From contig AP018182.1 in NCBI GenBank assembly GCA_002368155.1, positions 1 to 64,000 of the forward strand: a stretch of DNA of 64,000 nt, given 5' to 3'. Source of the DNA: Nostoc carneum NIES-2107. Its GTDB lineage: Bacteria > Cyanobacteriota > Cyanobacteriia > Cyanobacteriales > Nostocaceae. Shown here piece after piece: positions 26,931 to 63,127 of the stretch. How positions within the stretch are numbered: the stretch's first letter is position 1; each line of letters starts with the position of its first letter. The notes beneath the pieces are model-generated. The model made no database searches. It saw only the letters and a list, made by a program, of their open reading frames with translations, and was not told the DNA's origin. The position numbers and the translations under genes are program-made.

Positions 26931-29438
26931 TTATAGTTCAACTTCTCTTGACTTGGTTTTAGGTGCAGCAGCGACAGTTTGCTTTTGAGGGGAGGGTATG
27001 TGTTCAGTAGGGGTATATTGCTGCCGAATTTCTTCTCCTCGCCATACTTGTAAGTCATTCATAATATCTTTAAGCGGAACAAAATCGACGACTGTTTCTC
27101 CTTGCTTTTGTGCTTCAGTTGCCTTGTAGGTCATAATCTTGAAGTACATCTCTCGCTGATCGGCAATTGGTAACTTGCCGTTGTTCTCATTTATCCGTTG
27201 TAGAATTTCTTCATTGCCTTGGTTCATTGCTCCTCCCCAGTCAGGGCCACCATGCTTGACCATATTTGCCCATTCCTCGGCGATGTAAGGGTGAACTGTG
27301 ACAGGCAAATTGCCAACTGCTTGTATTACTCCTTCTTTGGGTGCATCTGCGTTTGTGGAAGTAGATTGTTCGTTACCAAAGATGTGTTCCAAGTTGAGTT
27401 TGCTGGCGTTTTGGGCAATAAACTTAATTTGGTTGATATCGTACTCAGAGATATTCATCTTGCTGACTTCTTTGGTAATGCCAGCTTCGCTTTTAGTTAG
27501 GTCAAACCGGACAAGTTCCTGAGTACCTTTTTCTTCAGTAGTTTTAAATAACTGCAAGCTGGCTCGATTTTTTTCGGGGTTGCGCGATCGCTTGATGGTA
27601 AATTCACCTACTGTAAGTTCTTCCTTATCAGCCTGGATGAGGACATTATTCAGGGTGTGCAACATCTCATTTTGTTTAAATACTTCCAGCGTTTTAATCG
27701 TGCCGGCAGGTGCAAGACTCCCCAAGCTGTTTGCTACATCACGGATATCGGCATTATTGAGGTCAGGTAGCTTCCCATTGTCGCTCAAGTACTCTGCCAC
27801 AATGAGAAACTCCTGACGTTCAATAGGTAACATCTCTGTAGGCTTTTTCGTGATTTTGGGTTCCTCTTTTTTGTTGAGTTTAAAATCCATCAAAGAGTTC
27901 TCCCACTCAAATAGTTCATCACTGCGGCGATGAATGCTAACAGTGTCTCCCTCTTGGCGAATCACAAATGTATCGCTACGGTAAATACGTGACCTATCTT
28001 GTTCAAGAGTGCCGTATTTTTTTAACATTGCAATTGCAGTTTCAGCAATGTCTTTATTTTCCCCGTTGTAACGTTCTTCCCGCGCTTGTTTATTATTAAT
28101 TTGATAAATAGGTACTTCAACCTGACGCGCCCACTGTTGCGCGGCTGGCTCTACATCTTGAGAATTAGCTATTTCTTGATAGGTAAATTCAGGTGCATAT
28201 TTTTTTCGATTATTAGTTGCTTGTTCCTCTGGCTCTTGTGCAAAAAACTGATTGGAAGTTACATTTTTATTTACCTCCTCATCAGCTTGATTTTGAGATT
28301 GATGGTTACTAATAACTATCCGTTGAATTTGAATAGTTTCTTCGGACTGTGCGATTTCTTCTTGAAGATTATTGACGACATCATCTTCAAAGCTGTTATC
28401 TACCTCTATTTCAACAGATAAGTTGATTCCTTTATTTATAGACGAACTGTTTTCGCTGGTTTCATCTTGTAGTAATTGCTGTGAAGTATTTGATTCGACT
28501 GCTTGAATGTTAGTTTTAGATTGTTCGTTGAGTGTCTGCTCTCCTGATTCAGGATAGTTTTTGACTACAGGATACTGATAATAATCAACATCTGGTGGGT
28601 AGTCAAAGTCGGGTGGATTACTAATATCAATATCATCTAGAAAACCTACCGCAGCTTCCTCTTCTTCGTAATACAATTTAACTGGTGTGGTTACAGTTTC
28701 AGAATTTAATTGTTTATTATCTTCGTTCAGTATTACTGATAAATTACCTACTGGTGGAGTTACTTCTGTTACATCTGAGTTTCCATTATCAAATAATAAC
28801 TCTTTTGTACCTTTATGATTGTTAATAATATCAGCAGACGGAGGTAGTAGCTTAACTAGTGGTTCACTTGCCACATCTATTATTTCATCTGGAGTAAGTA
28901 TTTCAGTGACGAGATTAGTTGTACATTTACCTTCGCTATTTTGTTCGTAGATAACGATTTGTTTTTCTGAACCATCTGACTCTAGATAAGCTGTAATTTT
29001 CAGAGTATTATCACTTGTTTGCTGATAATCACTATTGAAATTAGGTACATCTTCTACTAATCTTGCAGCAATTGTTTGTGCTTGATAGTCAGTAAAAGGT
29101 TCAGTTTCTATTGTGTATTGACCTTCTACTAATAAATCGGGCATTAACACAATATTAGTTTCTTGATTGCTTTTTATACTTTGGCTGCTTAAATCTACCT
29201 TTTCCCATTTATATGCACCAGGGGTAGATTCATCAGGTACAAGATTGTAAATATCTTTGCCAACTTCAACGGCAATTTTACTTGCTTCTTGGGCTTCTTT
29301 GAGTTTTTCGAGAATTACTTTAGTTATCTTAGTAAGTGCATTAATTAGGCTTTTACTTAATTCTCGACTTGTTTGAATTGCAGTATCGGCTGCACCTAAA
29401 TATGATTCATTAATTTGAGTGTGTCTGGAATCAAACAT
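26931..29438 (-). CDS. Large plasmid accessory protein next to VirD4
   Basis: 835 residues, acidic. Residues 1-90 are helical (GAADTAIQTSRELSKSLINA), 190-430 are low-complexity and rich in Glu/Asn/Ser, 430-560 contain compact segments (FTYQEIANSQDVEPAAQQW, RIYRSDTFVIRQEGDTVSI), and the C-terminal 250 residues hold conserved-looking blocks (ERQEFLIVAEYLSDNGKLPDL, WANMVKHGGPDWGG). It ends KSREVEL. No relaxase motif (no HHH or catalytic Tyr pattern) is seen. Immediately downstream of the coupling protein gene, it may be a DNA-processing accessory factor or a transferred effector. Function unknown. Confidence 0.55.
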   Translation of the reverse strand: MFDSRHTQINESYLGAADTAIQTSRELSKSLINALTKITKVILEKLKEAQEASKIAVEVGKDIYNLVPDESTPGAYKWEKVDLSSQSIKSNQETNIVLMPDLLVEGQYTIETEPFTDYQAQTIAARLVEDVPNFNSDYQQTSDNTLKITAYLESDGSEKQIVIYEQNSEGKCTTNLVTEILTPDEIIDVASEPLVKLLPPSADIINNHKGTKELLFDNGNSDVTEVTPPVGNLSVILNEDNKQLNSETVTTPVKLYYEEEEAAVGFLDDIDISNPPDFDYPPDVDYYQYPVVKNYPESGEQTLNEQSKTNIQAVESNTSQQLLQDETSENSSSINKGINLSVEIEVDNSFEDDVVNNLQEEIAQSEETIQIQRIVISNHQSQNQADEEVNKNVTSNQFFAQEPEEQATNNRKKYAPEFTYQEIANSQDVEPAAQQWARQVEVPIYQINNKQAREERYNGENKDIAETAIAMLKKYGTLEQDRSRIYRSDTFVIRQEGDTVSIHRRSDELFEWENSLMDFKLNKKEEPKITKKPTEMLPIERQEFLIVAEYLSDNGKLPDLNNADIRDVANSLGSLAPAGTIKTLEVFKQNEMLHTLNNVLIQADKEELTVGEFTIKRSRNPEKNRASLQLFKTTEEKGTQELVRFDLTKSEAGITKEVSKMNISEYDINQIKFIAQNASKLNLEHIFGNEQSTSTNADAPKEGVIQAVGNLPVTVHPYIAEEWANMVKHGGPDWGGAMNQGNEEILQRINENNGKLPIADQREMYFKIMTYKATEAQKQGETVVDFVPLKDIMNDLQVWRGEEIRQQYTPTEHIPSPQKQTVAAAPKTKSREVEL

Positions 29439-29524: not shown

Positions 29525-31351
29525 TTAGAAAAAGCTCTTGTACGCATCAACAGGTAAAGGTGCATTGCCCGCTTGTACGGGTGCTTGTGGGATAGGGAAC
29601 TTCCGATCTACTTCCTTGACTCGTAAATCTAAATCTTCCTGTGTCGGTTTTTTCTGAGTACTTTTCCTAGCAAGCTCTTTGATGAGTTTATCCCAGTTCG
29701 CGTCATTTTCTTGTTCTAATCCAATGATATGTTTGGGAATTTTGATATTTTTTAATAGTGGTACTGAACCCTCATTTTTATTACTATAAGCTGGGTTGAT
29801 AAATAGACATTTACCAGGTGGTAATTTGAGGAATTGGGCTGTCTCGAATAGCTTGCGAGTCCGTTCTTGTTCGCTGATAGATGTGCTGGCTTTACCCCCT
29901 CCTGTTGAGCGGGATTTTTGTTTATATTTAATTTCCTCTTCACCTAAATATGCAGAAAATAATCGTGCTGATTCTTCTTCACCAGGATTAAAAACAAATT
30001 TTGTACCGCACGCACCAAGGATAGCTTTAGAGATTTCTTTACCATAAATCTTTTCAAGCTGACCCATATTTTGCCAACCCAGGATACCGCAGAATCCTTC
30101 GGAACGAGATTCGTTAAGCCATCTAAATAAATCTGGAAGGAAGATACTTGGCAACTCGTCAAGACACACTACTAATGGTCCGTCTTCCTTACGTTTTTTG
30201 GCAATACTACGGGAAACTACCATGTGAAGAATACTGGTCATCAGGGGGCTGACAGCATCGCGGCGTTCGCGGTCTAACCCGAAGATAATCATCTGTTTGC
30301 GTTTTACCTCCAGAGGCAAGGTTGTTTTACCGACAAAGCATCCCAATGTACCCCTTGCCATGAAGCGGGTGAACATCAATGAAGCACTACCAGCAATACC
30401 CGCTACAGTTTTCTCGGAGCCAGCCGAGCTAAATAATTGACCAAAAGCTATCCTAATCCAAGGGTTTAGTTCGGCTGCCATCAAGCGTTCGACCATCTTC
30501 TCGCTAGAAAGTATTGCCGCAGCCGTCATAATATCAGCGCGATCGCCGAACTCTTTAGTTAGCATTAAAATAGCCTGGGTCAACTGGTCGCCGGCGGGGC
30601 CAAAGAAAGCATCCTCAGACGCATTACCTAACAGGCGGAAGTTTTTGTTAATTACCGTAGCTAACTGCCGTGCGGTTTCAGCATCGCTACTGTCGCGCAA
30701 GAAATCGATTGGGTTACATACCTCTGATTCGGGAAATCCCGGTGCAAATATATGTACGTCATACCCCTTGGATTTGGCATAACTGGCGATTTTGGCTTGA
30801 CTGGCATACTTAAAGTCGTATAATAATATACCGAAGCCTTGGTCAATTGCTGAGTAAATCATCGGGTTGATAGCCGAGAATGATTTACCACTACCAGGTG
30901 CGCCAATTACAGCAGTTCCCCGTTGGACATCGGGTACATAAACTGGAACTCCCCCACTCCCTTGGGGTAATTTTTGACCCTTGTATTTGTGTACGCCAAT
31001 ATATAAACTGGCACTATCGCACTTAGGAGCGACGATTTGCTTGAGGGCTTTTTTCTTAGCTTGGGTGGTTTCCTTTGCTCCACCCCAATAGCTAGTAGCA
31101 AGCTTGCCTTTTTTACCATTACTAAAAAGCTGTAAAAGCAACAATAAGCCAATTCCCCCGGCAAGTGCCAAACCTTGAGGTGACATGAGCTTATTTGTAT
31201 ACTTACTAAAGTCAGTATTGCTATTTTTATTGTTTGCTTTTACTTCTCTAACTGTCTTAGTTTTAGCAGTTGCAAACAGATGATTATTCATATTAATCTG
31301 TGTTAATTGCATGAGGAAATTGAAGAAATATGCGGTGAAGTGAAGTTGCAC
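29525..31351 (-). CDS. VirD4/TraG-type conjugative coupling ATPase
   Basis: 608 residues. A transmembrane helix (LALAGGIGLLLLLQLF) near residue 80 precedes Walker A GAPGSGKSFSAINPM (about 153) and Walker B LVVCLDELPS followed by RSEGFCGILGWQNMGQLEKIYG, the TraG/TraD all-alpha-domain signature. Coupling proteins pump the relaxase-bound DNA strand into the secretion channel. Only one clear N-terminal membrane segment is seen. The true start may be Met14 or Met21. It closes the visible mating operon, downstream of the VirB10/VirB9 genes. Confidence 0.9.
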   Translation of the reverse strand: MQLHFTAYFFNFLMQLTQINMNNHLFATAKTKTVREVKANNKNSNTDFSKYTNKLMSPQGLALAGGIGLLLLLQLFSNGKKGKLATSYWGGAKETTQAKKKALKQIVAPKCDSASLYIGVHKYKGQKLPQGSGGVPVYVPDVQRGTAVIGAPGSGKSFSAINPMIYSAIDQGFGILLYDFKYASQAKIASYAKSKGYDVHIFAPGFPESEVCNPIDFLRDSSDAETARQLATVINKNFRLLGNASEDAFFGPAGDQLTQAILMLTKEFGDRADIMTAAAILSSEKMVERLMAAELNPWIRIAFGQLFSSAGSEKTVAGIAGSASLMFTRFMARGTLGCFVGKTTLPLEVKRKQMIIFGLDRERRDAVSPLMTSILHMVVSRSIAKKRKEDGPLVVCLDELPSIFLPDLFRWLNESRSEGFCGILGWQNMGQLEKIYGKEISKAILGACGTKFVFNPGEEESARLFSAYLGEEEIKYKQKSRSTGGGKASTSISEQERTRKLFETAQFLKLPPGKCLFINPAYSNKNEGSVPLLKNIKIPKHIIGLEQENDANWDKLIKELARKSTQKKPTQEDLDLRVKEVDRKFPIPQAPVQAGNAPLPVDAYKSFF

Positions 31352-53314: not shown

Positions 53315-53917
53315 TTAGTTGTGGTTTTTCTTGTTGCGCCCCTTAGTAGCTGATTGCACCTTAAACCGTACCTGTTTCCCAATAGTTATCTCAGCAACAT
53401 CGCTAATATCTTTACCAGATTTATAGGCTTCAAGAATTGCCTTATTATTAGCTTGGTACTTAATAACTCTAAATTCATCAGGAAAATCTTGATCGTCTAC
53501 CTCTACTAGTAAGTTAGTGACTTTGGGCGGATTATCCCTGATTTCAATTACTCTTTCCTTACCAATATTTTTGTCACTGATTAATCCAATCTCGTGTAGA
53601 TGGATCAGGGTACGCTTGATTTGTTCAAGTTGAGTTTTACGACGTGAAATTACCCGGTCGTGGAGTTCGGCTACTCGCACTTTTCTTTCTTCCCAGGTTT
53701 CAAGGTCAAGATTTAACTGGTCAACTACCCAGGCGATCGCATCAATTTTGGTTTCGATACCATCTTGAACACCCATAAGTTCTTGTACGAGTTGTTCTAC
53801 TTTACCTTCTTCGCCTAACTCGCTTGCTTCTTCTATCTGTGACCAGAGTTTAGCAGCATCTAAGCTTAACTCTTTGAGCGTGAGTTGATTGATTTCGCGT
53901 TCAATTGCTTGAGCCAT
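53315..53917 (-). CDS. Gp157-like phage/plasmid protein
   Basis: 200 residues. Long helical, Glu-rich N-terminal part with a coiled-coil pattern (ELSLDAAKLWSQIEEASELGEEGK, WEERKVRVAELHDRVISRRKTQ), then a beta-rich tail with RDNPPKVTNLLVEV and FRVIKYQANNKAILEAYKSG. This layout is that of siphovirus Gp157 family proteins, small DNA-metabolism proteins found on phages and plasmids. Their exact role is unclear. It precedes a very small Tyr-rich gene upstream on the same strand. Confidence 0.6.
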   Translation of the reverse strand: MAQAIEREINQLTLKELSLDAAKLWSQIEEASELGEEGKVEQLVQELMGVQDGIETKIDAIAWVVDQLNLDLETWEERKVRVAELHDRVISRRKTQLEQIKRTLIHLHEIGLISDKNIGKERVIEIRDNPPKVTNLLVEVDDQDFPDEFRVIKYQANNKAILEAYKSGKDISDVAEITIGKQVRFKVQSATKGRNKKNHN

Positions 53918-54315: not shown

Positions 54316-54615
54316 CTACCACAAAGATAGTTGTCCTGGTGATATGTTTCCCCGTCGTCGCGTATGGAACAGCAGATGACAAGCCGTGCATAAAGCCGCG
54401 AGATTCTCGTCTCGATTATCTTCGGGCAGATAATTCCAGTGGTGAACCACTAAAGTTTTAATACTGCGTTCTATACGATTTAACCCATCTCTTTTATCAG
54501 TTGGGCGTAAGCATTGTATACCACAGCGCGTGCATTTCCAGTCGGATTTTGATTTGACCTCAAGTGCGATAGTATCCCAGTTTGAAGAATAGCGACTGCG
54601 GGTTTGACTAGTCAT
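54316..54615 (-). CDS. HNH endonuclease
   Basis: 99 residues: CTRCGIQC (CxxC), LVVHHWNYLPEDNRDENLAALC (HH...N) and CTACHLLFH (CxxCH). This is the compact HNH fold with a structural zinc site, common on phages and plasmids. It is isolated, so it is probably a stand-alone nicking or double-strand endonuclease gene. Ends SPGQLSLW. Confidence 0.85.
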   Translation of the reverse strand: MTSQTRSRYSSNWDTIALEVKSKSDWKCTRCGIQCLRPTDKRDGLNRIERSIKTLVVHHWNYLPEDNRDENLAALCTACHLLFHTRRRGNISPGQLSLW

Positions 54616-54967
54616 TAATCAGTCCTTTTGGGTTACACAAAACTAATTTTGATTATAGAGATTTGAGAGCTTCCCGGAAAGATGCCAATCGTTTAGGTTG
54701 GGAGTATAACTCAGACGATAGACTGTATCATCTAGTACAATAAATGTGTTTAATGCTCTGAAATTAATAGTAATAAAAGAAGTTTCAGCATCTAACTTTC
54801 ATTTTTCAGCAAAATTACTCACAATCTAATTTTTTCCGATCAACCTCAAAACCTTATCCAGCAACGAAATTAAGGCTTATTCCAAGCTAACCCTAGCCTA
54901 AAAGCTCCTATGTAGAAACTCAGCAACTATACGATGCAGTCATAGCTGAACTGAGTAGGAGAAATTC
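54616..54967. other. Upstream region of the peptide-repeat gene
   Basis: No gene with a start codon. A plus-strand frame reading LHKTNFDYRDLRASRKDANR (about 54632-54743) ends in TAA without a start and may be a relic. A Shine-Dalgarno (AGGAG, 54957-54961) for the peptide-repeat gene is visible. No convincing -35/-10 pair was found. Confidence 0.45.
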
Positions 54968-55141
54968 ATGATGAATCAAGAAGCTTTTAACGGACTGAAG
55001 ACTGGTGTTCGCCCTGACGGACTGAAGACTGGTGTTCGCCCTGACGGACTGAAGACTGGTGTTCGCCCTGACGGACTGAAGACTGGTGTTCGCCCTGACG
55101 GACTGAAAAACTGGTGTTCGCCCCGCCGCGTAAAGATTTAA
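54968..55141 (+). CDS. Tandem-repeat precursor peptide, candidate multi-core RiPP
   Basis: 57 residues from ATG 54968 (AGGAG 6 nt upstream; a second ATG at 54971) to TAA 55139-55141. A short leader MMNQEAFN is followed by four perfect copies of GLKTGVRPD, then GLKNWCSPRRVKI. The underlying 27-bp DNA repeat is perfect four times; the fifth has one extra A (GAAAAAC), which shifts the frame. Without it the peptide would end in GLKTGVRPAA. Proteolysis of several repeats, each then modified, is the multi-core RiPP pattern. Next to it are an HDO, a JmjC/cupin-like protein and a reductase-bearing NRPS-like enzyme. Previously unannotated because an antisense frame masks it. Confidence 0.7.
   Translation: MMNQEAFNGLKTGVRPDGLKTGVRPDGLKTGVRPDGLKTGVRPDGLKNWCSPRRVKI
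54992..55127 (+). repeat. 27-bp tandem repeat array (4 perfect + 1 shifted)
   Basis: Unit GGACTGAAGACTGGTGTTCG plus CCCTGAC, starting 54992, 55019, 55046, 55073; a fifth copy at 55100 has one inserted A and diverges after position 55124. The unit length is a multiple of three and matches the encoded nonapeptide, so it is selected at protein level or arises from slippage within a coding sequence. It is not a CRISPR: there are no spacers. Confidence 0.9.
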
Positions 55142-55144
55142 TAA

Positions 55145-55169
55145 CCAAGGGCAGTTAGCCTGCCCTTGG
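55145..55169 (+). terminator. Hairpin between precursor gene and JmjC-like gene
   Basis: Perfect 10-bp stem CCAAGGGCAG (55145-55154) / CTGCCCTTGG (55160-55169), 5-nt loop, beginning 4 nt after the precursor stop. The T-tract is poor, so it is probably a leaky terminator or RNA processing site giving more precursor than enzyme, typical of RiPP operons. Confidence 0.65.
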
Positions 55170-55206
55170 GTACTTAACACGAATCAATTAGGTATAGGTT
55201 GTCATA

Positions 55207-56487
55207 GTGAACGATCAAGTAGAACAAGTCTTTCAGCAGAATACAGCACTGACATGGCCTTTATCCCCTGAGTGGTGGGCGAGGGAGTTTTTAGAAGTGA
55301 CACGAGGTGGGGTCGAGCCATATCTATTTAAGAAGATACTTCCCAGCGAATTCCCAGTACCAGAAGAACTAACCAACGCATTCCGTTTAATGCAAAAGAT
55401 GCGTGATGTTAAGAAAGCTCGTGTTCGTGTCTATCTTGGTGAAGAAAGGCGCGATGACCTTGTAGGAAAAGCACTTGAATCACAGTTTTTTATAAACGAG
55501 TCGTTACCAGACTTTATGGTACGTATAACTGGGGAAAAAAGATTTTCTCTTGTACTAAATAGACTTCAAGATTGGAGTGAGCCTCTTACAGCAAGTGTTG
55601 GTACGTTTCTCCAATCTATGTTTGTTCAGCGGGGTGTACCTCTTGGCGGCTCCGAGATGGTTGTTTTTGCTGGCAATTATGCTGGTACAGCTTTCGGTGT
55701 ACATCGCGGTTTTGAGCATGCCTTTTTAATTCACTTGGGTCCAGGAACAAAGGAATTTCACTGTTGGCCGGAACAATTGTACAAAAAGTTGACTGGCTCA
55801 TTAGAACCAACATTTGGCGACTACGAGTATCTACTTTCTAGCTCCGAAAAATATGTACTTGAGCCGGGAGATGTGTTGTATCTTCCTGCCTTGGTGTTTC
55901 ATGTGGGGAGGCAAGATGAATTTTCGGTTAGTGTCGCGTGTCCTTTATATACTTATCCGATCAAACGACTGCTTAAACAAGTTGTTTCCAATTTAGTCGA
56001 ACAAATACCATTTGATGAAACAGGGATTTCATCTCATCAAACTTTCGCATTCAATACTAATCCTTTAGAGAAGTTGGCAAGCAGTGTTGCACAAGAAATT
56101 TTCGATGATTGGATGCAAACACAGATACCTATAGTATTAGATGACTATTGGTTTAGGCTAATTAGCAATGGCGGCTTTGATATATCGGAAAGTCTTATTG
56201 ATGAAGCCAGACAAGAGATTGATCTGATATCACCACTGCATTTAGAGGCTAAGAGCACACTACGCTTAAAAAGACCTTATAAGATCTGTTGGTCAAGTCG
56301 TAATTGTAACGCAAAAGATGTGCAAGTGTTTCTACGAGGTCGCAGCGTTACCGTATCGTATTCTGAAGAGATGATTGCGCTCTTTGAGCTTCTAAATGAT
56401 GGGCATGAAATCACCTTAGATAGTTCTAGCAGAATTATTGAAACTCTAAGGCGAATCTCAAGAACGAATGGTTTTGAGATTGTTTAG
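55207..56487 (+). CDS. JmjC/cupin-like putative oxygenase
   Basis: 426 residues from a GTG start. The cupin core has FGVHRGFEHAFLIHLGPGTKEFHCW (His166) and LEPGDVLYLPALVFHVGR (His232), the pattern of RoxA/JmjC 2-oxoglutarate dioxygenases. The usual HxD iron ligand is HRG here, with Glu four residues after His166, so the metal set may be altered or the enzyme may use another ligand. The C-terminal 90 residues (VQVFLRGRSVTVSYSEE, ALFELLNDGHEITLD) look like a winged-helix. JmjC-like enzymes hydroxylate amino-acid side chains in peptides. First enzyme after the precursor gene. Confidence 0.65.
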   Translation: MNDQVEQVFQQNTALTWPLSPEWWAREFLEVTRGGVEPYLFKKILPSEFPVPEELTNAFRLMQKMRDVKKARVRVYLGEERRDDLVGKALESQFFINESLPDFMVRITGEKRFSLVLNRLQDWSEPLTASVGTFLQSMFVQRGVPLGGSEMVVFAGNYAGTAFGVHRGFEHAFLIHLGPGTKEFHCWPEQLYKKLTGSLEPTFGDYEYLLSSSEKYVLEPGDVLYLPALVFHVGRQDEFSVSVACPLYTYPIKRLLKQVVSNLVEQIPFDETGISSHQTFAFNTNPLEKLASSVAQEIFDDWMQTQIPIVLDDYWFRLISNGGFDISESLIDEARQEIDLISPLHLEAKSTLRLKRPYKICWSSRNCNAKDVQVFLRGRSVTVSYSEEMIALFELLNDGHEITLDSSSRIIETLRRISRTNGFEIV

Positions 56488-56524
56488 TGCTACTTTTCAA
56501 CAATTGTAAGGAGAGATAGAAGGA

Positions 56525-57364
56525 ATGTTCGCCGATAAAATAGAAAAGTTCTTTATTGAGAATCATGATTCATCGGAGATATTTAAAGGAATTTTCACCG
56601 GACATCTTCAGAGTTTCAATGGTAAAGAACTAGTCCATCATATGGCTAGAATGATCGAATACATATTCGACATGATCGAGAAAGAAGTTTCCCCTTCAAG
56701 CCTGTCTGCCCCAGTTCTGCTTCACTACATAAACGAACTCGGTGTATTTGCACGACACAATTCTCAGTTCTTGAAGTCTGCTGCTGCACATTCAATGGAT
56801 GCCGTACCTGAGATGGCAGCGGAGTTCATCCGTAACTTTTTAGAAGAAGGTGGAAACGTTGAAATCCTAGCCCACTATGAACTTTACTCATCTGCATTGT
56901 TGAAAGATTTAGATGTCAACATTATCGGACACTACCCAATTGCTTGCACGAGTGAACTTGTGCAGATTGTTGATTTATTATCTCGTTCTCACTCTCCAAG
57001 CATCATATGCGGAGCTTTCTACGCTACAGAAGGCGTAGCCATTAGGGAGACAAAGCTTCTGCGGGACATTACCAATGCATACGCAGCCCTCACAGGTAAA
57101 ACGGAGGCAAGCCTACCAAACCTGAACTTCTATTATGATTTGCATCTAGATTATGGTGTCGAGCAAGGACACATAAGTGGAATAGCTCGATTCATTTGTG
57201 AGTATGAGAGATTTGGTCTTAAACTACCTCAAATTTGTGACGGTTTTTTACAGGGTATGCAGGCCATGACAATGTGGTGGACTATTTTGCATACTGTTGA
57301 GAACAATATTGAGAAACTTCAAACACCAGAAATTAAAATCCTTGCGGCAAGCAGCGTTGTGTAA
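56525..57364 (+). CDS. Heme-oxygenase-like diiron oxidase (HDO)
   Basis: 279 residues with an AAGGAG ribosome binding site. All-helical, with ligand-like motifs in the usual order: an acidic helix near 106-118 (NFLEEGGNVEILAHYEL), AFYATEGVAIRETKLLRDI near 165-182, and NFYYDLHLDYGVEQGHISG near 202-220 (D...H...E..H). This fits the HDO superfamily (BesC, UndA, SznF central domain), which uses a transient diiron centre for C-C cleavage, desaturation or N-oxidation. Its substrate could be the peptide repeat or the reductase-bound amino acid. 1 nt before the next gene's ATG. Confidence 0.65.
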   Translation: MFADKIEKFFIENHDSSEIFKGIFTGHLQSFNGKELVHHMARMIEYIFDMIEKEVSPSSLSAPVLLHYINELGVFARHNSQFLKSAAAHSMDAVPEMAAEFIRNFLEEGGNVEILAHYELYSSALLKDLDVNIIGHYPIACTSELVQIVDLLSRSHSPSIICGAFYATEGVAIRETKLLRDITNAYAALTGKTEASLPNLNFYYDLHLDYGVEQGHISGIARFICEYERFGLKLPQICDGFLQGMQAMTMWWTILHTVENNIEKLQTPEIKILAASSVV

Positions 57365-57365
57365 A

Positions 57366-58079
57366 ATGAGAACTATTCTAGTAATCATTCATCACCCGAC
57401 TTCCAAAACGGGGCTAGTTGGACAACTTTTACATAGGAAAGGTTACATACTAGACATTCGCTGTCCAAGTTTGCAGGAGGAACTGCCAGCTACTCTAGAA
57501 AGGTATGATGCAGTTGTTATGTTTGGTGGTTACATGAGTGTAAATGACGATGAAACCTTCCCATTTATCCGAACTGAACTAGATTGGCTACCAACAGTTC
57601 TCGATGCTAAAAAACCTTTTCTTGGTATTTGTTTAGGTGCTCAAATGTTAGCACGAGTGTTGGGTGCAAAAGTTGCGCCCCATCGCGATCATTTAACTGA
57701 AATTGGCTACTGTCCGGTGATGCCAACTTTAGCAGGTCAAATTTGCTTTGAAAAAACAATGTATTTTTATAATTGGCATCAGGAAGGGTTTGACCTTCCT
57801 TCCAGTGCTGTTTTGCTAGCATCTGGAGACCAATTTCCTAATCAGGCATTTCGTTATGGCGAAAGCGCTTATGGATTCCAGTTTCATCCTGAAACTACAC
57901 AACAACTCATTCGCCGATGGACAACTTTAGGTGCTGACTATCTTACTCTTCCAGGAGTTCAATCTTACACTATGCAGTTGAAGCTTCATGCTCAGTATAA
58001 AGCTTCAAATCGTCATTGGCTTCAAGGGTTTCTTAACAAGTGGCTCGAACCAGCAACGAGCATTGCAGCAGCTGCGTGA
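57366..58079 (+). CDS. Class I glutamine amidotransferase-like protein
   Basis: I choose ATG 57366-57368 (MRTILVIIHHPTS), 1 nt after the HDO stop; a 69-nt longer frame overlaps it. 237 residues. The nucleophile elbow FLGICLGAQMLARVLGAK, plus the catalytic HxE as FQFHPETTQQ, and FGGYMSVNDDETFPFI (GMP-synthase-like), identify a class I GATase. It may deliver ammonia to a synthetase, or act on glutamine-like side chains; no partner synthetase is adjacent, so it probably supplies nitrogen to the A-T-R product or modifies the peptide. Confidence 0.8.
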   Translation: MRTILVIIHHPTSKTGLVGQLLHRKGYILDIRCPSLQEELPATLERYDAVVMFGGYMSVNDDETFPFIRTELDWLPTVLDAKKPFLGICLGAQMLARVLGAKVAPHRDHLTEIGYCPVMPTLAGQICFEKTMYFYNWHQEGFDLPSSAVLLASGDQFPNQAFRYGESAYGFQFHPETTQQLIRRWTTLGADYLTLPGVQSYTMQLKLHAQYKASNRHWLQGFLNKWLEPATSIAAAA

Positions 58080-58393
58080 AAAAAAGATGTCTTTATCAAG
58101 CTGGTTAATGAAGAAGTACTGATTGTAACTATTATGTCTTGATTTTATCATGCTATTAGCTCATTTCTTGCTAACTCTGCATTAGTAAAATGTGAGATGA
58201 ATTGGGATAGAAAAATACCTGCTCAAATATGAAGATGTTAACCAATTAATGCTGACAAAGAAACTAATGTTTGAAACCAATTATCATATGCTTCATATGC
58301 TTCTAGAGCTTGTTGATCTCCATTAAAAGATTGACATTATCGATATAGCAGCATATGCAATTTGTTGATTTAAAATTTTAGACTTCAAGAGGT
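58080..58393. other. Gap within the biosynthetic island
   Basis: No intact gene. A minus-strand frame (QALEAYEAYDNWFQTLVSLS..., near 58253-58330) lacks a start and is probably a relic. An AAGAGG-type Shine-Dalgarno precedes the GFA gene. Confidence 0.4.
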
Positions 58394-58783
58394 ATGACGA
58401 TGAGAGAATATACAGGTGGATGCCACTGCGGATACATTCGATATAGTTTAACAGGAGAACCTACCTCCCCTCATTTCTGCCACTGTCGTATGTGTCAACG
58501 TATTATAGGAGCGCCAGTAGTAGCTTGGGTAGATTTTCCAATTTCTTCTCTCAAGTATGAAGGTGCAGAACCATCATTATATAGGTCTTCAAAAAATACT
58601 CAGAGAGGCTTTTGTCCAAAATGTGGTAGTTCAATATTTGCTCTGGATGATGGGAGCGAGTCTATTTGCATAACAATTGCAACTTTAGATCATTCAGAAT
58701 TGATAGCTCCAGAATATGAGACTTACAAAGAAAGCTCCCCTCCATGGATGAATATGGGCAAAATAGGTAGCCTAGCAGAGTAA
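58394..58783 (+). CDS. GFA/DUF636-family zinc protein
   Basis: 129 residues (a second ATG at 58400 is equally placed). CHCGYIRYSLTG, FCHCRMCQRI and FCPKCGSSIF supply the CxC...CxxC...CxxC cysteine set of the glutathione-dependent formaldehyde-activating (GFA) family, with the WVDFP and CITIATLD blocks. GFA enzymes add aldehydes to thiols. In a pathway with an aldehyde-forming reductase and perhaps an N-demethylating or oxidising HDO, it could detoxify formaldehyde or bind an aldehyde intermediate. Immediately followed by the A-T-R gene with a 101-nt gap. Confidence 0.8.
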   Translation: MTMREYTGGCHCGYIRYSLTGEPTSPHFCHCRMCQRIIGAPVVAWVDFPISSLKYEGAEPSLYRSSKNTQRGFCPKCGSSIFALDDGSESICITIATLDHSELIAPEYETYKESSPPWMNMGKIGSLAE

Positions 58784-58884
58784 ATCAATTGATCTCATAA
58801 AAAATGATGGCAGTACTAATATATTTAAGTTTTATTTACTGCCATTAACCTAGCAATTTAAGCCATAAACTAGATAGTTGTGTA

Positions 58885-61800
58885 ATGAAGATGAATTTCT
58901 TAAATTTACCTCAGTTATTGAGAAAACAGGCAGAAGAAACACCGAATAGCATTGCTATAGTAGATGGTGATACTTCAATTACTTATAAAGAATTGAATAT
59001 TTTGACAGATTCGTTAGCAGGCTACTTGCAACAGCAAGGCGTTAGTTTCAATAAACTAACAGGCATCTTTATGGAAAAATCCGCTGAATATATCATTGCG
59101 TGTTTTGCAGCACTAAAAGCAGGAGGGGCCTACATGCCCTTAGATTTAGCATATCCAGATGCAATACTTTCCAAAATTGTAAGTCAGGATAAACCAATTG
59201 TAATAATCACAAAAAGCTTCTACTCAAGCAGATTAGAAGCTAATACTTCTACCATAATTTTAGATATAGACACCAATACAGCTTGGAGGAACTATGTTTG
59301 CAATCGTGATGCAGTTTCATTAATGTCTCCAGATAATCTGGCTATGGTCATATACACCTCTGGGTCAACCGGAGAACCTAAGGGTGTATTGCTTTCGCAT
59401 CGAGCAATAATTCATAGTTATTATACTCACTTATATAATATTAGCTTCTACATAGCAGGAGATCGTTCTGCATTCAATGCATTTTTTCCTCTAGAAATGC
59501 TAAAACCTTTTTTCAGAGGTGCAGCTTGCCACATTATTCCCAATGAAGTTGCATATGACCCTAAACTATTACTAGATTTTATTGCTACTTATCAAATTAC
59601 TGAAACAGTTTTAACGCCATCATTTCTGCAATTACTGATTAATCGAGTTGAACCAGCTGTCATTCAAACTCTGCTTTCCTCTCTGAAAGTTTTGTGGATA
59701 TGTGGAGAAGTTTTGACAACAGAGCTGAAAAACAAAATTTTAAAGATATTTCCTCATAATCTTTGCTTATTCAATTGGTATGGTATGAGTGAATTTCCTA
59801 GTGTTTCACTTTACCGATTAGAGGAAAGTGAAGATTTCATATCAGAATTCTGTCCAGTAGGATTTCCTTTAGAGGAAGTGAAGGTATGTCTGCTAGATGA
59901 AAATCAAAAAGCAGTTTCACCAGGATTCCCTGGTGAATTATATGTTAGTGGTTCTTGTTTAGCTAGTGGATATCTAAACAGACCAGAACTAATTGCAGAA
60001 CGATTTGTAGTGTTTAAGAAAAATAAATTTTATAAAACTGGAGATATAGCAACCATTCTCCCAAATGGAATGCTGGAAATTAGGGGACGCTGTGATTCCA
60101 CAGTAAAGATACGCGGTTATAGCATTAATTTGAAAGCGATTGAAAATGCTTTACAGAAAACTGGACTAGTAAAGTTCTGTCTTGTTATTACTGTAGGTAA
60201 AGAAGGTGAGAATAAGCAGATCATAGCTTATATCCTTAAGCAAGAAAATCTTGATTTTAAAATAGACCCGAGTAATGGAAATTGTGTAGAAATTCAGGAA
60301 AAAATCAAATCATACTTGCCCAAGTATATGATTCCTAGTAAATATATTGAATTAGCAGAAATTCCTCTTAATTCCAATGGTAAAGTTGATCAAAAGGCAC
60401 TTCCTTTGCCCATACCAAATTATGAATACGATTTAAGTAATATTCAAGCTAAGGAGACGGTATCTCCAGAAGACAAGGAAGCAATTCTGAAAAAGTTATT
60501 AGAGAGAGTTCTATTTTCGGGGCGAGGACAGATAGAGAAGGATGCAAATTTTTTTGATTTTGGGTTAAATTCCCTACTGTCTGTAGAACTGGCTGCTTTA
60601 ATTGGAAAAATGTTTCAGATAGAGCTTAGTGTGAGAGATATCTATGATTATCCTACAATCAACAAATTATTGGAATATTTTAACAAAGGAGAAAAAAATT
60701 TTTCCACTGTGATTTTAATGCGGAAAGATTCTCATCTGGACTCTGGTATTACACCAATAACGCGTACAAAGCCATTGTCTATAAGAGATGCAAAATCTAT
60801 CCTTGTAACCGGAGCAACAGGATTCTTAGGAGCATTTTTATTAGATGAATTACTTAGGTTGACCAATGACGATGTTAAGCTTTACTGCTTAGTTCGCACT
60901 CAAAGTGGGATAGAAGATGTCGGCAAGCAAAAAATTATTAACAATCTAAAGCGATATTACTTGTGGAATCAAGAAATAGAAAAGCGAATCATACCTATAG
61001 TTGGAGATTTAAGTCAAGAGTATTTGGGCTTATCAATTGAACGCTTTGAAGAATATACGGAAACAATAGATTATATTTTTCACTGTGCAGCACCAGTGAA
61101 TTTCTTGTATTCCTATGATATTTTGAGAGCGCCCATAGTAAATGGAACTCGTGAAATAATTCGACTGGCATCTACTTATGTAACCAAACCTTTACAATAC
61201 ATATCAACAGTTGGCATATTTCCATTTAAATCTCATCAAGAGCTTTTTCTAGAAAACAACGAGATTGATTCATTTGCCAATAAACTTACCGGAGGATATG
61301 CTCGTGCAAAATGGGTAGCAGAGAAGTTAGTTTGGGAAGCTATAGCTAGAGGGTTACCTGCTTGTATATATCGTCCTGGTTATATTGGGCATCACAGTAT
61401 AACAGGGATGTATAACTTCAGTGATTTTCAGTTTCTGGTAATCGATGCTTGCAAGAAAATTCAGTGTGCACCAGAAACCAGCCAGGTTTTTTTTGAAATG
61501 ATTCCAGTTAACTTCTTAGTGAAATCAATTGCCGAGTTTGCAAATAACGATTGTAATTATTTCAAAGTATATAATGTAACTCAGCGACAACCAATACCAG
61601 CTAGATTCGTCTTTGACTTACTCAAAGAGCAAAATTATATTTCCAAGTATGTATCTGTCGAAGAATGGAAAGCGAAATTAATTGCAAAGGCAGACAAAGA
61701 TGGGGATACTATTCTCAATATTATAGCCCAATCTTTTGAGGAGAATATGGGGCTTTACCCACGCGGCGAAAGTGTATATGACTGCTCTCTTTTTGAAAAA

Positions 61801-61890
61801 GCTCTTTCAAATCACAAGATACAGCCTCCTGTTATAGACACTGACTACATCAAAAAGGCAATGTTTTTAAATGAAGGCATTAATTGCTAA
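58885..61890 (+). CDS. Stand-alone adenylation-thiolation-reductase (NRPS-like)
   Basis: 1001 residues, three domains: adenylation (1-520; IYTSGSTGEPKGVLLS, GKVDQKAL), carrier (545-615; DFGLNSLLSVELAAL with phosphopantetheine Ser near 563) and thioester reductase (640-1000; ILVTGATGFLGAFLLDELL, GGYARAKWVAEKLVWEA with catalytic YxxxK, GYIGHHSITG). No condensation domain. Such proteins activate a carboxylic acid and release it as aldehyde or alcohol. In the acid-binding region the usual Asp235 is Asn (FNAFFPLEM), which suggests a non-standard substrate. Follows the GFA gene; an aldehyde product would give the GFA protein a reason to be here. Confidence 0.85.
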   Translation: MKMNFLNLPQLLRKQAEETPNSIAIVDGDTSITYKELNILTDSLAGYLQQQGVSFNKLTGIFMEKSAEYIIACFAALKAGGAYMPLDLAYPDAILSKIVSQDKPIVIITKSFYSSRLEANTSTIILDIDTNTAWRNYVCNRDAVSLMSPDNLAMVIYTSGSTGEPKGVLLSHRAIIHSYYTHLYNISFYIAGDRSAFNAFFPLEMLKPFFRGAACHIIPNEVAYDPKLLLDFIATYQITETVLTPSFLQLLINRVEPAVIQTLLSSLKVLWICGEVLTTELKNKILKIFPHNLCLFNWYGMSEFPSVSLYRLEESEDFISEFCPVGFPLEEVKVCLLDENQKAVSPGFPGELYVSGSCLASGYLNRPELIAERFVVFKKNKFYKTGDIATILPNGMLEIRGRCDSTVKIRGYSINLKAIENALQKTGLVKFCLVITVGKEGENKQIIAYILKQENLDFKIDPSNGNCVEIQEKIKSYLPKYMIPSKYIELAEIPLNSNGKVDQKALPLPIPNYEYDLSNIQAKETVSPEDKEAILKKLLERVLFSGRGQIEKDANFFDFGLNSLLSVELAALIGKMFQIELSVRDIYDYPTINKLLEYFNKGEKNFSTVILMRKDSHLDSGITPITRTKPLSIRDAKSILVTGATGFLGAFLLDELLRLTNDDVKLYCLVRTQSGIEDVGKQKIINNLKRYYLWNQEIEKRIIPIVGDLSQEYLGLSIERFEEYTETIDYIFHCAAPVNFLYSYDILRAPIVNGTREIIRLASTYVTKPLQYISTVGIFPFKSHQELFLENNEIDSFANKLTGGYARAKWVAEKLVWEAIARGLPACIYRPGYIGHHSITGMYNFSDFQFLVIDACKKIQCAPETSQVFFEMIPVNFLVKSIAEFANNDCNYFKVYNVTQRQPIPARFVFDLLKEQNYISKYVSVEEWKAKLIAKADKDGDTILNIIAQSFEENMGLYPRGESVYDCSLFEKALSNHKIQPPVIDTDYIKKAMFLNEGINC

Positions 61891-61938
61891 GGAATTAAAG
61901 GATTTCAAATTTTGAGATGAAATTATTATGTAACTAGT

Positions 61939-62526
61939 ATGGTGATTGACAAAATTGTAACTCGTTGCGACTGGGCAAATTCTACAGAACTTGAAATGGA
62001 GTACCACGACAAAGAATGGGGTGTTCCCATACATGATGATAGGCTTCTTTTTGAGTTTTTAATCCTTGAAATTTCTCAAGCAGGACTAAACTGGTTGACA
62101 ATTCTCAAGAAGAGAGAAGGTTATCGAGAAGCTTTCGATAATTTTGATGCCAATAAAATTTCTAAATATTCAAATGACAAAATAGAAGAGTTATTTTTGA
62201 ATCCAAATATTGTCAGAAATAAGTCAAAAATCATTGCCTCCATTGAGAATGCTAAGAAATTTCTAGAAATACAAAAAGGGTACGGTAGCTTTGACACATA
62301 TATCTGGTCTTTTGTTGGTGGTTCAACAATTGAAACTTCATGGGAGGACGTTTCAGAAATTCCGACAAGGACACCTGGATCAGATTTTATGAGTAGAACT
62401 TTAAAGAAAAAGGGGTTTAAATTCCTTGGCAGCACCACATGTTATGCTTATATGCAAGCTGTAGGCATGATTAACGGTCACATTAAAAATTGTTTTAGAT
62501 ACTCTGAAATTAAGAATAATTATTAA
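61939..62526 (+). CDS. tag: DNA-3-methyladenine glycosylase I
   Basis: 195 residues. The family landmarks are complete: N-terminal VTRCDWAN, YHDKEWGVPIHDD, FEFLILEISQAGLNWLTIL, FVGGS region and the C-terminal CYAYMQAVGMINGHIKNCF, which completes a zinc site with the N-terminal Cys/His. Tag excises N3-methyladenine. It is at the end of the biosynthetic island on the same strand, 48 nt after the A-T-R gene; resident repair glycosylases near biosynthetic genes often give self-resistance to alkylating products. It could also be an unrelated rescue gene. Confidence 0.9.
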   Translation: MVIDKIVTRCDWANSTELEMEYHDKEWGVPIHDDRLLFEFLILEISQAGLNWLTILKKREGYREAFDNFDANKISKYSNDKIEELFLNPNIVRNKSKIIASIENAKKFLEIQKGYGSFDTYIWSFVGGSTIETSWEDVSEIPTRTPGSDFMSRTLKKKGFKFLGSTTCYAYMQAVGMINGHIKNCFRYSEIKNNY

Positions 62527-62672
62527 CTGAATTTATATCTATTCCTCTTTTTTGACTCTGGTAGAGATAGTGTTACGCCGTTGAGTAGCAATTGAACTAA
62601 AACATACTGTGATTTTACCCCCTGCGTGACCAAATTTTGTGACTTAAAGGAATTGTTTGCTGTTTTTTAAAG

Positions 62673-62774
62673 AATAAAGTTGCCGTGACAGAGGCTGAAA
62701 GCATTATTCTCTCGATTCTTTCGGATCTTTCTGAATTAGTTGTCGAGTTCCATTAAATAATAAAGTTGCCGTGA
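62673..62774 (+). repeat. Pair of 16-bp direct repeats
   Basis: AATAAAGTTGCCGTGA at 62673-62688 and 62759-62774 (start-to-start 86 bp), inside the inverted-repeat element. Each is followed nearby by a GACAGA-type string. Could be protein-binding sites of an end-recognising transposase. Confidence 0.6.
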
Positions 62775-62804
62775 GTCCATGACAGAATAAGAGTTTTGGG
62801 CTTT

Positions 62805-62837
62805 GCGATAAGCGAAGCTTAAGCCTTCGGCTATCGC
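62805..62837. repeat. Nostoc-type palindrome
   Basis: GCGATAAGCGAAGCTT followed by AAGCCTTCGGCTATCGC forms an imperfect hairpin in the style of short dispersed Nostoc repeats, like the one inserted in the dpdA-like gene. Confidence 0.55.
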
Positions 62838-63127
62838 GCCATGACAAAGACAGAAGCTAGTTAGTCTCTGGGTTCGGCAAGCTTATCCTTTAATTTTCGG
62901 CAAACAATTCCTTTAAGTCACAATCACAGTTTTGATGCCAAAAATTCATCAATTTCTCGCGAGTTATGGGAGAAATGTTCCGACACTGGTAGAAATAGTT
63001 ACTGTGTAAAGGAAAATTACGGTGATCGCATCTGTAATTTAGAAGAGAAGGATTAATGGCTAAACGCTAATTATATCAATACTTTTGACCAAGTTGGCAC
63101 TTCCTGCTAGCTTCCCTAGCATTACGC

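Follow-up and report, generated by a model that had tools for sequence, protein, structure and literature searches.

Tandem-repeat peptides encoded beside shared oxidising enzymes in cyanobacteria, actinobacteria and Xenorhabdus suggest an undescribed peptide family

A gene of 57 codons in the cyanobacterium Nostoc carneum NIES-2107, made up largely of tandem copies of a unit encoding the nonapeptide GLKTGVRPD, lies 5' of genes for a JmjC oxygenase and a heme-oxygenase-like diiron oxidase (HDO). The DNA analysed, called the window throughout, covers the first 64 kb of contig C3 (221,468 b), one of the four contigs of this 9.36-Mb genome. Cyanobacteria, actinobacteria and Xenorhabdus encode related repeat peptides next to these oxidising enzymes, in many cases together with a DNA-repair enzyme. 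This suggests that the gene-encoded peptides form a family not described before, with a product that may attack DNA. We favour, with some reserve, the reading that these clusters form a family resembling the ribosomally synthesised and post-translationally modified peptides (RiPPs), with a multi-core precursor whose Lys/Arg units are modified and a product that probably alkylates DNA, against which the glycosylases AlkC or Tag would protect the producer. The RiPP part of this reading is strongly supported, and the DNA part is suggested by the glycosylases found with the clusters.

The precursor gene of the window and its signals are the following:
54957-54961, plus strand: Shine-Dalgarno-like AGGAG, read from the sequence, six bases 5' of the precursor ATG
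54968-55141, plus strand: precursor gene, ATG start, 57 aa; 8 residues, four GLKTGVRPD units and an out-of-frame remnant of a fifth unit
54992-55018, 55019-55045, 55046-55072 and 55073-55099, plus strand: four 27-bp units, identical in DNA (Tandem Repeats Finder, sequence)
55145-55169, plus strand: hairpin with a 10 bp stem and 5 nt loop, found by folding, between the precursor and JmjC genes

Tandem Repeats Finder describes the array as 4.9 copies of period 27 (98% matches, score 252), and only one further array, a weak one with score 56, is present in the 64 kb. The open reading frame (ORF) at 54968-55141 translates to MMNQEAFN + 4 x GLKTGVRPD + GLKNWCSPRRVKI. An earlier note on this DNA had described a repeat gene with ribosome-binding site and ATG, followed on the same strand by a hairpin and a series of enzyme genes; folding and Pfam confirm the hairpin, the gene order and the domain identities. 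Of the short leader that it also described, a short stretch does precede the first unit, amounting to 8 residues only, and the stretches in the relatives are likewise short. The window's own genome contains the nonapeptide pattern 4 times and is the only one with a match among 388 genomes drawn from the order; the backwards control gave one match, in one other genome of this draw (G059).

The 71-nt hairpin region has a folding energy of -23.5 kcal/mol (z -3.66), a stability matched by 1 of 200 dinucleotide shuffles. Similar folding is common in the relatives. When the 80 nt 3' of the precursor stop were folded for 19 loci and compared with mononucleotide shuffles, 13 reached z <= -2.5, among them the window, N. 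commune and both Xenorhabdus loci; the other six are Streptomyces or Amycolatopsis loci. The hairpin is absent from the predicted terminator-like sites of the window, and it may keep enzyme expression below that of the precursor. A purine-rich stretch of GGAG/GGGAG/AGGA type stands within 30 bases 5' of the precursor start in all ten loci inspected.

Relatives were collected through the HDO. A tblastn search of plasmid records returned 12 records, Nostoc commune HK-02 (86%) and 11 Streptomyces plasmids, of which ten matched at 41-48% and one remotely (S. clavuligerus, 31%, 58% covered); the N. commune relative and the ten close Streptomyces relatives are plasmid-borne. Four of the 12 records (L005-L008) were fetched for reading of the neighbourhood, and in each a short repeat gene stands 5' of the same enzymes. 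A scan of bacterial genomes with the HDO alignment added 22 loci from Streptomyces, Kitasatospora, Peterkaempfera, Amycolatopsis, Nocardia, Xenorhabdus and one Acidobacteriota metagenome-assembled genome (MAG). All counts over loci below refer to the resulting HDO-selected set of 27, the window plus 26 others. As 22 of these are actinobacterial and N. commune HK-02 is the only close cyanobacterial relative found, the system is not specifically cyanobacterial. Its distribution is sparse: among 217 genomes of the family, the HDO matches its own genome, N. commune HK-02 (G452) and four remote ones; a window-type JmjC occurs in its own genome only among 388 genomes drawn from the class, a draw evidently without an N. 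commune genome; and in the family of Nocardia asiatica (L010) the HDO is restricted to that genome among 126. A plasmid relative (L073) has a JmjC gene and no repeat, and a Vibrio lentus plasmid (L075) has an EpmA-like gene and no repeat. A phage or viral origin of the HDO was considered and rejected: 10 pattern matches in viral contigs included no relative, and the phage collection gave no match.

Of the 27 loci, 26 contain a short ORF in which the K-x-[GNA]-x-RP motif occurs at least twice (2 to 9 copies); the exception is the Acidobacteriota MAG (L028). No such ORF arose in 135 mononucleotide shuffles of the same loci. The units are LKxG[VM]RP[DG]-like, with the consensus core LK-x-G-[VM]-R-P-[DG]-A. 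Precursors read, for example, MNQESLN(ALKxGVRPD)x4A in N. commune, MSPMLKSGVRPDALKAGVRPDA... in Nocardia, MNSSIKSGVRPDALKSGVRPYALKTGVRPDA... in Xenorhabdus and MTATAAMTPDTGLKAGMRPDAPDLK... in Streptomyces; in the five annotated records (L005-L008 and L074, a truncated plasmid cluster) they are named hypothetical proteins only. Among 150 units from non-duplicate arrays, position 0 is K in 148 and Q in 2, position 6 is D in 123, G in 26 and Y in 1, and position 7 is A in 124. Codon differences within arrays are mainly silent at the conserved positions: 39 silent to 7 non-silent at the D/G position, 19 to 4 at K, and 148, 173 and 181 silent to none at G, R and P. Free variation is seen in the residue that follows K and in the position that follows D/G, with 216 and 98 non-silent differences. 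Because these statistics, which include L070 and leave out L028, pick units as [KQ]x[GN]xRP by construction, the invariance of R and P, and in part the G, R and P counts, are not independent observations. The excess of silent changes supports translation of the precursor and nothing further. In three Streptomyces precursors (L013 4895-5164, L022 4894-5172, L024 4892-5170), LKxGMRPDA units alternate with [LM]KLGMRPDA units, and two unit types might give two products.

Linkage between repeat and enzymes was assessed in 249 genomes, a set whose completeness is not stated, from the family of Streptomyces violens (L013). The tandem Streptomyces-type repeat pattern occurs in 6 of them (backwards control 0), and an HDO profile at E <= 1e-20 picks exactly the same 6, always 3.8-4.0 kb from the repeat and on the same strand. 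One of them, G860, had been picked for having the cluster, and therefore the fair count is 5 of 5 in 248. The earlier note had held that the repeat occurring elsewhere without these enzymes would refute its proposed cluster; no such case is seen in the 249 genomes, and the one exception met elsewhere, without HDO, is L074. Pairwise protein distances run in parallel, uncorrected for shared ancestry, for HDO and JmjC (r 0.95, 325 pairs), HDO and EpmA-like ligase (0.96, 325 pairs) and HDO and AlkC (0.79, 171 pairs). Co-conservation across phyla, in 26 of 27 loci, in the same 6 of 249 genomes and with mainly silent codon changes, strongly supports the idea of a multi-core RiPP precursor worked on by JmjC and HDO enzymes.

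Downstream of the hairpin, the window carries these genes:
55207-56487, plus strand: JmjC_2/ribosomal-oxygenase-like Fe(II) enzyme, GTG start, 426 aa (Pfam JmjC_2 27.4 bits, cut-off 22)
56525-57364, plus strand: HDO (DUF3865), 279 aa (Pfam DUF3865 44.8 bits, cut-off 31.6)
57366-58079, plus strand: class-I glutamine amidotransferase (Pfam GATase 59.6), window-specific, membership unproven
58394-58783, plus strand: GFA-fold protein (Pfam GFA 84.3)
58885-61890, plus strand: adenylation-thiolation-reductase (A-T-R) protein resembling nonribosomal peptide synthetases (NRPSs), 1001 aa (Pfam and TIGR01746 above cut-off), window-specific, membership unproven
61939-62526, plus strand: Tag, DNA-3-methyladenine glycosylase I (Pfam Adenine_glyco PF03352 255.6 bits, cut-off 25, 3.2e-76)

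Across the loci, counted from a tblastn table and ORFs, the conserved core is the precursor, a YcfD-like JmjC (26 of 27, absent from L028 and present in every one of the 26 repeat-bearing loci), the HDO, GFA (25, not in L012 and L028, and partial in L014 and L022) and an EpmA-like ligase (26, missing from the window only; that of L021, read in two pieces, is counted as present). Amidinotransferase and desaturase genes are found in all 22 actinobacterial loci and no others; TauD (20), AlkC (19) and an arginine-deiminase-type protein (18) are likewise purely actinobacterial. Xenorhabdus has the minimal set of repeat, JmjC, HDO, GFA and ligase, after which a fusion of a LysE-type exporter with a solute-binding domain is encoded. 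In N. commune the cluster also includes an ornithine-decarboxylase-like gene and another whose dioxygenase match is weak and below cut-off.

The HDO, above the Pfam gathering score for DUF3865, has the heme-oxygenase-like fold, and its residues E71, E107, H117, E169, H207, D209, E213 and H216, invariant in 23 of 23 members, would allow a diiron ligand set of 3 His and 3-4 carboxylates. The JmjC protein matches the ROX fold including its C-terminal domain; H166-x-G168 and H232 are found in 22 of 22 members where an HxD...H triad is not, and E170 might substitute for the HxD carboxylate. The ligase profile matches lysyl-tRNA synthetase (LysRS; 1.1e-32) and 3g1z (6.3e-22). PF00152 is found in 19 of 19 members, which consist of the class-II LysRS core alone (ORFs of 292-345 aa, ~300 aa); for the one member scanned (L006), the best NCBIfam model is EpmA (TIGR00462, 85.7 bits against a cut-off of 286.9). 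At what we take to be the lysine-pocket positions of LysRS, the cluster ligases carry differing residues in a profile alignment.

The actinobacterial clusters end in a 'HEAT' gene that encodes a full-length AlkC (5vi0, 7.1e-81, positions 6-372 of a 12-member profile), 11 of the 12 members scanned matching Pfam DNA_alkylation; it is found in 19 of the 22 actinobacterial loci. At E <= 1e-20, AlkC is present in 40 of the 249 genomes, including all 6 with the cluster, where it always lies within 2.5 kb of the repeat. A high-scoring subtype (E <= 4.9e-177) is confined to 7 of the 249, the six cluster genomes and G1039, and the next scores are 1.3e-109 (a split copy) and then 4.0e-77; because the profile was built from such AlkC proteins, only this gap is informative. 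The G1039 gene and the split copy, in G898, have no other cluster gene in their 19-kb stretches, save a 25% match to the A-T-R query in that of G898. Cluster-type AlkC genes at L068 7885-8988 and L069 7159-8260, the latter split into two pieces, are 84-87% identical to the S. avidinii copy and stand without other cluster genes in 19 kb; they could be orphan immunity genes.

No AlkC match was obtained in the window, where Tag stands at the cluster end instead. Tag scores 214.6 bits with TIGR00624, below the cut-off of 232.5, and has no second match in its own genome; PF03352 is found in 2 of 118 Nostocaceae genomes, the other (G411) with two partial matches. Two unrelated glycosylases for alkylated bases are thus found at related clusters in two phyla, and therefore the product is pointed to as DNA-alkylating. 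Tag had been counted as a cluster member without a reason being given, and AlkC in the actinobacterial clusters now supplies one, if both serve producer self-resistance, as we propose.

Joined together, these data lead us to the following scheme. The nearly leaderless precursor would be a series of tandem cores, LK-x-G-[VM]-R-P-[DG]-A, and the invariant Lys and/or Arg of each unit would be the target of the operon-encoded HDO, YcfD-like JmjC oxygenase and GFA. In the relatives the EpmA-like ligase would add an amino acid to the core Lys, by analogy with EpmA acting on EF-P, and in actinobacteria the amidinotransferase, the desaturase and mostly the arginine-deiminase-type protein would join. 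Each unit would be excised and leave the cell as a small modified peptide or amino acid. The mature product would probably alkylate DNA, perhaps through transfer of a methyl or another small group, and a glycosylase for alkylated bases, AlkC in actinobacteria and Tag in the window, would protect the producer. A more specific version, which we put forward tentatively, is a new RiPP class making a DNA-alkylating small peptide: the EpmA-like ligase and the YcfD-like HxG JmjC (possibly a halogenase or alternatively ligated oxygenase), both kin to enzymes that modify the translation machinery, and the HDO would turn the Lys/Arg of the unit into an electrophilic warhead, for example an N-nitroso group or haloalkyl amine, and the two glycosylase families would have been recruited independently as self-resistance.

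Several observations weigh against the proposed scheme. L028 has an HDO and a ligase without JmjC, and a dedicated hunt found no repeat peptide there. Conversely, L074 has the repeat without an HDO match and with differing downstream genes, although it retains the EpmA-like ligase, TauD, desaturase, amidinotransferase, JmjC and an AlkC-type gene (Pfam DNA_alkylation 18.0 bits, below cut-off). AlkC is absent from three actinobacterial loci (L012, L014, L021), reads in two pieces in L010, where it was counted as present, and occurs in 34 of 243 cluster-free genomes. Queries with AlkC and Tag gave no match in the N. commune, Xenorhabdus and L028 loci, and nine neighbouring proteins from N. commune and Xenorhabdus, a part of their ORFs, contained no DNA glycosylase by Pfam. 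In the window itself the EpmA-like ligase has no match, its best hit in the whole genome being 27% inside a 565-aa open frame, and a one-base difference in length puts the fifth repeat unit out of frame, a point absent from the earlier note, so that this copy could be decaying.

The strongest alternative is that the repeat peptide serves as a scaffold or carrier: the ligase would load an amino acid onto the unit Lys, and a small metabolite would be built there and cut off, so that the peptide would not itself be the product. PEARL-type scaffold peptides are handled in this manner, a metabolite being built on a peptide and cut off. The ~300-aa class-II ligase core in 26 of the 27 loci, the LysE-type exporter fused to a solute-binding domain after both Xenorhabdus clusters and the near absence of leader sequence all speak for a scaffold, whereas the window itself does without the ligase. 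We regard this explanation, which is compatible with a DNA-alkylating product, as a genuine possibility that falls short of being the expected one.

Alternatively, the peptide would be a multi-core RiPP with a product harmless to DNA, and AlkC and Tag would be passengers or would repair damage done by side products of the oxidases, formaldehyde or reactive oxygen for instance. The N. commune and Xenorhabdus clusters without a detected glycosylase and the 34 cluster-free genomes among the 40 with AlkC fit this view, as does the Pfam description of GFA as a formaldehyde-related family. Against it stand the recurrence of two unrelated alkylated-base glycosylase families at the same kind of cluster in two phyla, the near absence of Tag elsewhere in Nostocaceae and the high-scoring AlkC subtype beside the cluster in all six cluster genomes; we hold it to be rather unlikely.

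A third explanation concerns only the window, whose cluster would be a dead remnant with the frame of its last unit broken, its ligase lost and unrelated genes as neighbours. The out-of-frame fifth unit and the lack of a ligase in the genome agree with this, while the four intact units and the full-length open frames of JmjC, HDO and GFA do not; JmjC and HDO are 76% and 84% identical to their N. commune counterparts, and GFA 59%. We consider a dead remnant improbable. The window copy is a diverged version, with four intact units, no ligase and extra amidotransferase and A-T-R genes, and, judged from its sequence, it may be a remodelled variant in which the A-T-R protein (AMP-binding 228.7, PP-binding 51.6 and NAD_binding_4 200.2 by Pfam) gives another activated acyl group, or an early remnant.

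Last, a selfish or chance DNA repeat (minisatellite) misread as an ORF, for which the DNA identity of the window units, like a young duplication, could be cited, is refuted by the same kind of peptide, its codons diverged, in 25 other HDO-selected loci that all have JmjC, and by the Streptomyces-type repeat, which is restricted to 6 of 249 genomes, all of them with HDO, so that we give it practically no weight.

With the RiPP-like reading retained, two further parts of the cluster as first drawn have to be revised. Neither the A-T-R gene nor the glutamine amidotransferase gene has a match in the other 26 loci by tblastn, which leaves the idea of a RiPP/NRPS hybrid unsupported, and the EpmA-like ligase of the relatives means that the window genes are not the whole set. 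The two genes were also tried as family members by plasmid searches, and among the matches listed only relatives under 60% identity appeared; the best amidotransferase match, on a Planktothrix plasmid, has no repeat-cluster gene among its annotated neighbours.

The surroundings of the clusters provide some additional observations. A gene for a type IV coupling protein (TrwB/TraG-type; 29525-31351, minus strand) is present in the window, and therefore C3 looks like a plasmid with conjugation genes. Just 5' of the cluster are a Siphovirus Gp157-like gene (53315-53917, minus strand; PF05565 above cut-off) and, directly adjoining, a weak HNH-like ORF below threshold (54316-54615, minus strand). 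Just 3' of Tag, positions 62637-62923 hold an inverted repeat of two 49-nt arms, 84% complementary and 189 nt apart, and a 22-nt direct repeat; the inverted repeat may represent a small mobile element or what is left of one. More distant are an 835-aa protein with a sub-threshold MACPF D2 match (26931-29438, minus strand) and a folate dehydrogenase/cyclohydrolase-type gene on this presumed plasmid (18997-20187, minus strand). Directly 5' of the N. commune cluster (L005 8318-10887), genes for TniQ, an AAA ATPase and an integrase resemble Tn7-type transposition genes, a possible route for cluster movement. In the Acidobacteriota MAG (L028 6322-10394), the related HDO and EpmA-like ligase lie beside a PhyH oxygenase and a decarboxylase-like gene. 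A Klebsiella michiganensis plasmid operon (L076 4781-10163) comprises an arginase family gene, two cupin proteins, a GNAT protein and an MFS transporter; one of the two cupins resembles the window JmjC (29%) over half its length, and L076 has no LKxGxRPDA repeat.

The earlier note knew of no RiPP class with this set of enzymes, and our searches agree: among the matches listed from the open-access literature, which are no proof of absence in print, there is no description of the family, its motif strings or a RiPP with JmjC/HDO, EpmA or a DNA glycosylase. For DUF3865, the only match listed there concerns Pseudomonas putida physiology. If the proposed reading is true, a RiPP class extends across cyanobacteria, actinobacteria and gammaproteobacteria, in several cases on plasmids, and DUF3865 HDOs, free-standing EpmA-like ligases and a JmjC family whose metal motif is unusual all gain a native peptide substrate. 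We know of no characterised ribosomal peptide that alkylates DNA; none was found among the open-access matches listed, and a DNA-alkylating product would, to our knowledge, be the first such case. AlkC and Tag would then become markers for finding compounds of this kind.

Among characterised proteins, YcfD, an L16 arginyl hydroxylase according to PDB titles, shares 12-14% identity with the cluster JmjC proteins. Its iron site is an HxD...H triad, whereas the cluster proteins have Gly at the acidic HxD position in 22 of 22 members. The cluster ligase resembles EpmA/PoxA, the EF-P lysine aminoacylase, in its LysRS-type catalytic core of ~300 aa and stays far below the EpmA cut-off. Streptozotocin is a DNA-methylating agent. 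In its pathway, SznF, with HDO and cupin domains, turns a guanidine into an N-nitroso group, according to the sections available of PMC13108848; the likeness lies in a guanidine substrate being worked on by an HDO together with a cupin iron domain, and the difference in that the two are fused in SznF and encoded by separate genes in the window (55207-56487 and 56525-57364).

Published HDOs work on side chains of amino acids and peptides. The closest RiPP comparison is with the thiovarsolins of Streptomyces varsoviensis (var), which, in the accessible parts of PMC6511847, share a repeating precursor with an Arg per core, an HDO-like VarO that apparently creates a double bond in Arg, an amidinotransferase gene and short peptides cut from the repeats. 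Thiovarsolins differ in their core, APR against LKxGxRPDA here, and in needing YcaO and TfuA; the var cluster, as described in those parts, has no JmjC, EpmA-like ligase, GFA or DNA glycosylase (PMC6511847). Neither YcaO nor TfuA is annotated in the L005-L008 stretches or matched among the window and reference cluster proteins scanned, the other loci having been scanned in part.

For self-resistance, AlkD- and AlkZ-type glycosylases encoded in gene clusters form a precedent (available text of PMC8934636, PMC9040887 and PMC8626424), and uncharacterised AlkZ-like clusters related to RiPPs/depsipeptides are mentioned in PMC9040887. The available text of PMC8934636 and PMC9040887 has AlkC as a comparison enzyme only, Tag in the references only, and tested products that are not RiPPs. 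In mangotoxin biosynthesis, finally, the HDO MboA acts on a peptide side chain and an amidinotransferase-like enzyme, MboE, turns peptidyl Arg to citrulline, as given in the accessible portion of PMC13185094; the mangotoxin peptide is made by ATP-grasp family ligases (PMC13185094), while the present clusters encode a ribosomal precursor.

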